A DNA stretch of 38,327 nucleotides from Vulcanimicrobiota bacterium. Lineage in GTDB: Bacteria; Vulcanimicrobiota; Vulcanimicrobiia; Vulcanimicrobiales; Vulcanimicrobiaceae. Below, piece after piece: positions 22,540-29,365 of this stretch. The stretch covers positions 1 to 38,327 of the forward strand of contig JAAXCX010000017.1 in NCBI GenBank assembly GCA_013036105.1. The letters are read 5' to 3'. A program made the translations under genes and the position numbers. The notes beneath the pieces are model-generated. The model was not told the origin of the DNA. It did no database searches and was given only the letters and a program-made list of their open reading frames with translations. The number at the start of each line of letters is the position of its first letter. Positions within the stretch are counted from its first letter, which is position 1.

Positions 22540-22902
22540 TTACTTGCGCTGATGCAGGTAAATGTAGTTCCCTTCGGGGTCAATGCACTCGGTCGCGCCG
22601 CACGACTCGCCCTCGAACTTGCGGTCGGTGATTTTTCCGCCCAGTGATTGGGCGCGTTCGGCCGCCGCGCTCTTGTCGCTGACGCCGAACATGATGCCGT
22701 GGCCTTCTTTCCAACCCGCCGACGGATCGTGCGCTAAGGCAAACGTCGAGCCGTCCGGTAATCCGTACTCAACCCAATAGTCCGACTCCATGCCCGGTTG
22801 CCATTCGAAGAGGCCTTCGTAAAATGCGCGCGCACGCTTCATGTCTTTGACGGTGTAGAAGACGACGTCTAGGCCGCGCAGCGGAATTTTTTGTTCGCTC
22901 AT
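22540..22902 (-). CDS. Glyoxalase/VOC family protein
   Basis: 120-aa vicinal-oxygen-chelate protein: LDVVFYTVKDMKRARAFYEGLF, WVEYGLPDGSTFALAHDP, GIMFGVSDKSAAAERAQSLGG and CIDPEGNYIYLHQRK. One babABB module is expected to dimerise. The substrate is unknown. ATG 22902 overlaps the stop of the ferredoxin-like gene upstream (ATGA), so the two form a small operon pointing towards sigH. Confidence 0.88.
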   Translation of the reverse strand: MSEQKIPLRGLDVVFYTVKDMKRARAFYEGLFEWQPGMESDYWVEYGLPDGSTFALAHDPSAGWKEGHGIMFGVSDKSAAAERAQSLGGKITDRKFEGESCGATECIDPEGNYIYLHQRK

Positions 22903-23231
22903 CCCAGCCGCTTCACGATTTCGGCGTAGAGCGCCTCTCGGTCCGCGACCGGATCGACGACGAAGGCTTGCGCTTCTTTGCCTTCGATCTTGGGATCGAT
23001 GACGACCGTTACGTTGCGTCGGGCGCAAACATCCATGCAGCTCGTGTTGATGGCGCGAATTTTTCCCCACAGACCTTCGGCTTTGAGCCGGTCCTTGAGC
23101 CAATCGCGCAGATGGAAGTCGCCGATCTCTGCGGCTTTGTCTGGGTCCTCTTCGGGAATGCGTTCTTTCGTGCAGCGTTCGCAGACGAGCACGAGTCCGG
23201 CATCCGACCATTTTGGTTTTATTTGCTGCAT
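22899..23231 (-). CDS. Thioredoxin-like (2Fe-2S) ferredoxin domain protein
   Basis: 110 aa. LVLVCERCTKE near the N-terminus and INTSCMDVCARRNVTVVIDPK in the second half give four Cys in the pattern of thioredoxin-fold [2Fe-2S] ferredoxins (C..C then CX3C). DFHLRDWLKDRLKAEGLWGKIRAINTSC is the usual connecting helix/strand. Cytosolic electron carrier or sensor; partner unknown. ATG 23231 preferred over TTG 23243. Confidence 0.8.
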   Translation of the reverse strand: MQQIKPKWSDAGLVLVCERCTKERIPEEDPDKAAEIGDFHLRDWLKDRLKAEGLWGKIRAINTSCMDVCARRNVTVVIDPKIEGKEAQAFVVDPVADREALYAEIVKRLG

Positions 23232-23251
23232 AAGCTTTCGCAAGAATTTTT

Positions 23252-23340
23252 AGCCGACGGAGGGATTCGAACCCCCGAAACCCTTTCGGGCTTGCCTAAT
23301 TACAAATCAGGTGCTTTCAACCAGACTCAGCCACGTCGGC
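23252..23340 (-). tRNA. tRNA-Thr (anticodon TGT) with a long variable arm
   Basis: 89 nt folding as a full cloverleaf: acceptor GCCGACG/CGTCGGC with discriminator T and no encoded CCA; D-stem GCT/AGC; anticodon stem CCTGA/TTAGG with loop TTTGTAA (anticodon TGT); T-arm GGGGG TTCGAAT CCCTC. The variable region is 18 nt with a 6-bp stem and a GAAA loop (AAGCCC/GGGTTT), the class II form normal for Ser, Leu and Tyr. The D-arm (GTGGCTGAG...GGTTGAA) resembles tRNA-Ser. The acceptor (G1-C72, C2-G71) and anticodon loop look like tRNA-Thr. Confidence 0.88.
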
Positions 23341-23395: not shown

Positions 23396-23867
23396 TCAGA
23401 CCAGCGGCGGTTTCTCCGTGATTGATACGACACCTATCCTCAACGGATTCTCGCGGCCGCCTAGCCTGTGCGCGCGGCCTTTACCCTTGTTTAGGCCGCG
23501 AAAGGTATGAGTCAGGGAGTGGCAGCTGGGGCAAAGAAGCGTGAGGTTCGTTAAATGATTATTCTTCCAGTCGCCATCGATGTGCTCGACTTCAATTGGA
23601 ACACGCCGAGTGCACGGATTTCGTTGAGCCCACCCGCATCGCGCGCATTTTTCGCCAAATTTCCCCACGAGGTAATCCCGGAGAGGCCTAAGGCTGCTGA
23701 AAGGGTCGTAGGTCCCCGCTTCGATCCGAGCGACGCGTGTTTCGTATGTATGGCGACGTTGGCACGTTCTGGAGCAGTAACGAGTGCGGTCGCGTGGGAT
23801 TGGCTTTCCGCAACACGCGTCCGCTTGCGCATTGCCCGCGATAAATTTTTGGATTCAATCTGCTCAT
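23396..23867 (-). pseudogene. HNH endonuclease with N-terminal zinc finger, frameshifted near the start
   Basis: The main frame encodes a zinc finger CGKPIP...YCSRTCQRRH, then LRDYLVGKFGEKCARCGW, the HNH core VPIEVEHIDGDWKNNHLTNL with LLCPSCHSLT, and FRGLNKGKGR. This is the pattern of phage/intron-type HNH nucleases. No canonical start exists in this frame before GTG 23668, which would discard the zinc finger. ATG 23867 opens a frame (MSRLNPK) that joins the nuclease frame if the A5 run at 23846-23850 is one base shorter. So it is either a decayed gene, a slippage-regulated gene or a sequencing indel. The shortest intact frame is 23396-23668. It is followed codirectionally by tRNA-Thr(TGT). 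Confidence 0.8.
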
Positions 23868-28817: not shown

Positions 28818-29300
28818 GTGAAACACGAAGCTCGTCGGCGATATATCCGAATGCGCAGTAATCACGGCACTTATCAAATGTGGCTATGAAGTTTCGATCC
28901 CTTTCGGCGAGAATCACCGATATGACGCGATCGTGGACAAAGACGGCGTGCTGTCGCGCGTCCAAATCAAGTCGGGACGTTTGCGGCGGGTGTTATTGAT
29001 TATGCCGCTTGTAGTTCACACTTCCATCGAAGAGGGCAAAACTATCGAAGCTATCAAGGACAGGTCGATTATTTTGGGATTTACTGCAAAGATACGGACG
29101 AAGTATACTTGGTCCCCTGCGCTGACGTGCCGGCCACTCGCGGTTCGCTTCGGATTGATCCAACCAAGCAAGGGCAATTCAAGAAGGTACGTTGGGCGCA
29201 CCCATATCTGCTTTGCCGCGGTACCCCCGTCATGGTAGGGAGCGGTTCCGAGGCCGTAGTAAGGGCGCTAGGGCCGGTGCAGCTGGAAATGCCGTCGTAG
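28818..29300 (+). pseudogene. Group I intron-type PD-(D/E)XK endonuclease, two indels
   Basis: Frame one (28822-28988): NTKLVGDISECAVITALIKCG, then YEVSIPFGENHRYDAIVDKDG and RVQIKSGRLRR. Frame two (28989-29300): GVIDYAACSSHFH, then QGQVDYFGIYCKDTDEVYLVP, RIDPTKQGQFKKVRWAHPY. Together they give a PDDEXK_5-like nuclease with catalytic YD and QxK. One G is missing near 28989. At the start GTGAAACACG would read GTG-AAC-ACG (MNTKL) if one A were removed, but as it stands an in-frame TGA precedes AAC. The stop lies inside the following tRNA-Thr(GGT). Confidence 0.82.
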
Positions 29301-29365
29301 CTTAGTGGTAAAGCATTTCGTTGGTAACGAAAAGAGCGTGAGTTCAATCCTCACCGACGGCTCCA
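29291..29365 (+). tRNA. tRNA-Thr (anticodon GGT)
   Basis: Class I tRNA: acceptor GCCGTCG/CGACGGC, anticodon stem TTTCG/CGAAA with loop TTGGTAA (GGT), T-arm GTGAG TTCAATC CTCAC, discriminator T, encoded CCA. It overlaps the last codons of the nuclease pseudogene. Confidence 0.95.

Follow-up and report, generated by a model that had tools for sequence, protein, structure and literature searches.

In textbooks, bacterial class II tRNAs are those for serine, leucine, tyrosine and selenocysteine, and the class of a tRNA is held to be ancient and fixed. The window analysed here, a stretch of 38,327 nt that forms contig 17 of a draft genome from a family of Candidatus Eremiobacterota (G000; 2.34 Mb, 29 contigs, 95% complete), contains a gene that joins the threonine anticodon UGU to a long variable arm (Table 1). 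This raises the questions of whether the gene encodes a working tRNA, whether that tRNA carries threonine or serine, and how its unusual arm arose.

Anatomy of the tRNA gene

ARAGORN places a tRNA-Thr(tgt) on the minus strand at exactly 23252-23340, and these 89 nt are also matched by the Rfam tRNA model with 56.8 bits (E 8e-10; gathering score 29). Both calls cover the span of the initial sequence-only reading, which described a class II tRNA with the threonine anticodon TGT. Several features mark the molecule as a tRNA-Thr: UGU lies in a 7-nt loop (UUUGUAA), the gene occupies a position orthologous to that of class I Thr(UGU) genes (see below), and the acceptor bears the pairs G1-C72 and C2-G71, which had been described as Thr-type. 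The entire acceptor, GCCGACG/CGUCGGC with U73, is the same as in the class I Thr(CGU) of G000. Other features are those of class II, namely a D-arm with a 3-bp stem and an enlarged loop, and a variable arm of at least 10 nt with a stem. The 18 nt ascribed to this arm were confirmed and resolve into a C, a covarying 6-bp stem closed by GAAA, and a second C. The D-arm, first called Ser-like, proved to be Ser/Tyr-like when compared with the Ser and Tyr genes of G000.

Table 1. Coordinates of the class II tRNA-Thr(UGU) gene, its parts and neighbouring features in the window.
Feature	Position	Strand	Remarks
114-aa ORF with CxxC-type cysteine motifs	22899..23243	-	Begins 9 nt beyond the tRNA; marks synteny of class I and class II loci
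Class II tRNA-Thr(UGU) gene	23252..23340	-	89 nt, no encoded CCA; sole Thr(UGU) in G000; RNA GCCGACG-UG-GCU..AGC-A-CCUGA-UUUGUAA-UUAGG-C-AAGCCC-GAAA-GGGUUU-C-GGGGG-UUCGAAU-CCCUC-CGUCGGC-U
Acceptor stem, 5' strand	23334..23340	-	GCCGACG; G1 and C2 are threonine identity bases
D-arm	23313..23331	-	3-bp stem GCU/AGC, long D-loop; Ser/Tyr-like (compared with Ser and Tyr genes)
Anticodon arm	23295..23311	-	CCUGA-UUUGUAA-UUAGG; anticodon UGU at 23302-23304
Variable arm	23277..23294	-	18 nt: C, 6-bp stem AAGCCC/GGGUUU, GAAA tetraloop, C48
T-arm	23260..23276	-	GGGGG-UUCGAAU-CCCUC, from the sequence
Acceptor stem, 3' strand, and discriminator	23252..23259	-	CGUCGGC and U73; contains G71 and C72
HNH-endonuclease-like ORF	23396..23668	-	55 nt upstream of the tRNA; found at class I loci too
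Class I tRNA-Thr(GGU), comparison gene	29291..29365	+	ARAGORN, Rfam tRNA model

The tRNA shares with tRNA-Ser a large variable arm in the Ser orientation, C11-G24 and R4-Y69. It departs from tRNA-Ser in having C2-G71 instead of G2-C71, U73 instead of G73 and G30-U40 instead of G30-C40. Its acceptor-T composition is 7/5, not the 8/5, 8/4 or 9/3 of the Sec, allo-tRNA and selC* types. The class I tRNA-Thr(GGT) said to lie about 6 kb away was found at 29291, at a distance of 5.95 kb. The description of the gene as folding perfectly holds in part: a class II cloverleaf with the extra arm forms at -32.3 kcal/mol, but a misfold of the bare, unmodified transcript is slightly better (-35.5 kcal/mol). 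In the close relative G003, the Thr(UGU) at minimum energy folds essentially into the class II cloverleaf, with acceptor, anticodon, variable and T arms.

Sole copy and decoding role

All 46 tRNA matches of G000 were read, and its threonine set consists of a class I GGU, a class I CGU and the UGU gene at 23252-23340. A class I Thr(UGU) elsewhere in the genome, which would have spoken against a role for the class II gene, was not found among these 46 tRNA genes of the 95%-complete assembly. Under standard decoding ACA needs a UGU anticodon, and as the sole UGU tRNA the class II gene should therefore be essential in G000. Across 33 stretches of conserved coding sequence in the window, ACA makes up 6.7% of the Thr codons (31 counted). 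The tRNA is expected to read ACA and probably, by wobble, ACG as well.

Class I and class II forms at a shared locus

Thr(UGU) was readable in 92 of the 99 genomes of the family by a combination of model, pattern and ARAGORN. The length of its variable region is 4-5 nt in 49 of these genomes, 6-7 nt in five and 11-21 nt in 38. The search of related genomes proposed in the sequence-only reading thus found class II tRNA-Thr in 38 of 92 species, within a range of 4-21 nt that includes intermediates of 6, 7 and 11 nt (lengths seen: 4-7, 11, 13-16, 18, 19 and 21 nt). Both classes occur within six genera, and in the genus of the window the variable regions measure 5, 5, 14, 15, 15, 18 and 18 nt. Every Thr(GGU) and Thr(CGU) of the family (23 and 26 distinct sequences, respectively) is class I, and every class II Thr(UGU) copy that was read with its acceptor complete carries G1-C72 and C2-G71.

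The family's ThrRS tree implies a minimum of 19 class changes, or of 12 to 18 with weakly supported nodes collapsed (mean with shuffled labels, 23.6); the count is rough, as it comes from a single-gene tree, and the within-genus mixtures are independent of that tree. G028, from the same order but outside the family, has a Thr(UGU) with a 14-nt arm, and the other members of the phylum that were read are class I. Judged from these gene sequences, the class switch is recurrent, lineage-wide and confined to one isoacceptor, UGU.

Two further forms were observed. In genomes of g35, g11 and g42, Thr(UGU) loci of class I length (L139, L141, L178-L185 and L189) have an unusual 3-bp D-arm, GUGGCUCAGCGGCUACAGC, which resembles the D-arm of the 6-, 7-, 11- and 15-nt forms; these genes are possible intermediates of the class switch. 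The Thr(UGU) of G056 (L208), with a 21-nt variable region, has the anticodon loop CCUGUAA, in which C33 replaces the nearly universal U33.

The 114-aa ORF next to the tRNA has no match in Pfam or NCBIfam and is tightly linked to tRNA-Thr(UGU) all over the family. Among loci in which both the tRNA and the ORF were visible (a few genomes enter via more than one locus), it lies downstream on the strand of the tRNA, in most cases no more than 60 nt away, at 35 of 40 class I loci and at 39 of 40 class II loci. Because the same ORF follows genes of both classes, class I and class II Thr(UGU) are orthologous, and the change occurred in place. The usual neighbours of Thr(UGU), tRNA-Tyr, tRNA-Gly and Thr(GGU), agree with a shared locus. 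On the other side, the HNH-like ORF has its best NCBIfam similarity, far below the cut-off, to the HNH region of IscB. We rejected it as the cause of the class switch, since it is found beside loci of either class. Near Thr(CGU) there is a paralogue of this ORF (L009, L103 and L108).

Covariation and geometry of the variable arm

Between G000 and G003 all six pairs of the V-stem are kept (6/6), with three double and two single compensatory changes. Standard pairs fill 86 of the 90 pair cells across 30 distinct arms of 14-15 nt; shuffling gives 45 on average and at most 60. Of the class II Thr arms in which a hairpin was scored, 39 of 53 have a GNRA loop, and most arms consist of a 3-bp GNRA hairpin with two to three unpaired linker bases before position 48.

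These results bear on the possibility that the gene is a pseudogene, an assembly error or a tRNA-like element without a role in translation, as its odd architecture and the slightly better alternative fold of the unmodified transcript might suggest. We consider this extremely improbable, given the conservation of the gene in many species and assemblies, including the one-contig genome G014, the compensatory changes in the V-stem, and its status as the only gene found in G000 able to read ACA. The sequence-only reading had named decay of the locus in related genomes as grounds for doubt; in those genomes Thr(UGU) is conserved and covarying.

On the 3' side of the V-stem, and counting position 48, Ser arms have one unpaired base (16/16), Tyr arms three (16/16) and class II Thr arms mostly three or four. 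G000 and G003 are among the few class II Thr arms with one unpaired base and no linker before position 48, which is a Ser-like geometry. These counts indicate that the arm points away from the serine position in most relatives, which appear to hold it at a Tyr-like angle, whereas the G000 tRNA keeps the serine geometry.

The arm could also have arrived ready-made, through gene conversion that copied a tRNA-Ser or tRNA-Tyr gene, or its segment from the D- to the V-arm, into the Thr(UGU) locus. Whether the arm was copied or grew stepwise concerns its origin, not its function. Copying would fit the G000 gene, in which a Ser/Tyr-like D-arm and V-arm are combined with a Thr-like acceptor and T-arm, and the adjoining HNH-type endonuclease gene could promote such an exchange. 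It fits less well with relatives whose variable regions have 6, 7 or 11 nt and no clear hairpin, with several D-arm types that are not Ser-like, and with the prevailing 3-bp GNRA hairpin and its two to three linker bases, which are unlike Ser. We therefore regard copying as a possible but rather unlikely origin.

Threonine or serine

Bacterial threonine identity resides in the acceptor pairs G1-C72 and C2-G71 and in the anticodon, not in the variable arm, whereas serine identity uses the variable arm, G2-C71 and G73 (PMC9976931). With a Ser-oriented arm, C11-G24 and R4-Y69 in the G000 tRNA, misserylation is a real question. A standard SerRS is present in G000, and the SerRS of G003 includes the N-terminal domain with which the enzyme grips variable arms. 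The sequence-only reading had concluded that the tRNA must either avoid serylation or be ambiguous; the question is a fair one, but the codon comparison favours threonine over ambiguity. When 29 ACA positions of G000 in conserved genes of the window were aligned with relatives that have a class I Thr(UGU), they matched Thr in 43% and Ser in 10% of cases (bootstrap 95% interval 5-16%). In the same test, other Thr codons matched Ser in 6-8% and Ser codons matched Ser in 50-62%. As ACA aligns like the Thr codons and unlike the Ser codons, the comparison favours threonine as its meaning, and 29 positions leave room for a small share of serine.

Serine attached to tRNA-Thr is reported to be removed by ThrRS (PMC4041444). 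The ThrRS of the relatives carries the editing domain PF07973, and the editing residues H73, H77, C182 and H186 (E. coli numbering) are intact in 102 of the 102 enzymes compared, all from relatives. In the 95%-complete G000 draft assembly thrS was not found, presumably because of an assembly gap. G002 has two thrS copies at 7% contamination, and the double gene there and the missing one in G000 are probably both assembly effects. Loss of the TGS domain from ThrRS was considered as an enabling change and rejected, as it shows no simple link with class: the ThrRS of G002 lacks TGS and the enzymes of the family begin at the editing domain, but outgroup f3 genomes, whose genes are class I, also have short ThrRS, and TGS is retained in Spirosoma with its class II genes.

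A tRNA gripped by SerRS through its Ser-like arm, so that ACA is partly or wholly serine, would accord with the arm geometry of G000 and G003, which is that of 16/16 Ser arms, with C11-G24 and R4-Y69, and with the SerRS enzymes just described. We judge it very unlikely in view of the full threonine acceptor set with U73 and C2-G71 in place of G73 and G2-C71, the behaviour of ACA positions as Thr codons and the intact ThrRS editing domain in relatives.

The best explanation, which we hold with considerable confidence, is that the gene encodes a working tRNA-Thr, threonylated as we infer, and that it has switched class in place many times. Support comes from its anatomy, sole copy, synteny and covariation, from the meaning of ACA and from the editing residues of the relatives' ThrRS. 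ThrRS would recognise G1-C72, C2-G71, G35 and U36, none of which lies in the variable arm; with all threonine determinants outside it, the arm could grow while threonine identity was kept. SerRS would be held off by C2-G71 and U73, and residual Ser-tRNA-Thr could be hydrolysed by the editing domain of ThrRS. Threonine identity placed in the acceptor and anticodon should thus tolerate a long arm, and editing may clean up mischarging. With both safeguards already present, the Thr(UGU) gene may have moved repeatedly between class I and class II within the family.

Why UGU alone was affected might be explained if the long arm were kept for a function, such as the insertion of serine at ACA through SerRS, at a low level, tolerated or regulated, or evasion of toxins that target tRNA-Thr or of nucleases triggered by phages. 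Such a function, which we think improbable, would account for repeated arm gain in only one isoacceptor.

Occurrence in other bacteria

A genome scan over about 85,000 species, with further cases called by ARAGORN, revealed class II tRNA-Thr(UGU) beyond the family. Among the matches listed, it occurs in at least eight species of the cultured genus Spirosoma (15 nt), in Kiritimatiellae/Verrucomicrobia (14 nt), and in Rhodospirillales/Acetobacteraceae, Betaproteobacteria and others. When Spirosoma and Kiritimatiellae genomes were checked by a pattern search, none showed a class I Thr(UGU); both classes of Thr(UGU) occur together in G152 and in the Bacteroidota MAG G172. Among the matches listed by an even-draw search across the Spirosoma family, most were of class I length. 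Matches of the scan in Corynebacterium were discarded as chance matches to tRNA-Tyr, and archaeal and similar pattern matches as intron-containing or spurious. A Woeseiaceae MAG (L213) has a Leu-like class II tRNA with the anticodon UGU, possibly an anticodon-shifted tRNA-Leu, and also class I-length Thr(UGU) candidates.

Comparison with known systems

A literature search, which did not cover Mukai 2017, found no earlier report of a class II bacterial tRNA-Thr. The presence of both classes of one isoacceptor inside single genera of one family, with cases in other phyla, contrasts with the textbook fixity of tRNA class. It provides material, including the culturable Spirosoma, for testing how tRNA class changes, how SerRS and ThrRS distinguish two long-armed tRNAs and whether synthetase editing permits class changes, and it supplies tRNA engineering with natural scaffolds.

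Class I bacterial tRNA-Thr(UGU) resembles the class II form in acceptor stem, U73, anticodon, T-arm and position beside the same ORF. It differs in its variable loop of 4-5 nt and its D-stem of usually 4 bp, compared with 11-21 nt and usually 3 bp in the class II form. Bacterial tRNA-Ser has a comparable long variable arm, the zero-linker geometry seen in G000 and G003, and the D-arm type with C11-G24; unlike it, the Thr(UGU) has a Thr anticodon, C2-G71 and U73, and most relatives have a shorter hairpin and two to three linker bases. Bacterial tRNA-Tyr shares with the class II tRNA-Thr of most relatives a short arm of 3-4 bp followed by an unpaired linker, but it has the anticodon GUA and A73 and is not homologous by position.

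The nearest parallel is found in the nematode nev-tRNAs (tRNA-Gly and tRNA-Ile), in which a class II arm is likewise carried by a normally class I isotype; they take leucine in vitro, and the resulting mistranslation is undetectable in C. elegans (PMC4300185). In contrast to these, the Thr(UGU) described here comes from a bacterium, has no second Thr(UGU) beside it and retains its own identity elements. Unexpected long variable arms also occur in allo-tRNA and selC*, which are natural tRNAs of bacteria, and selC* retains Cys identity. However, their acceptor stems are longer (8/4, 9/3) and they are of a Sec-like accessory nature, whereas the class II tRNA-Thr(UGU) has a 7/5 composition and serves standard decoding.
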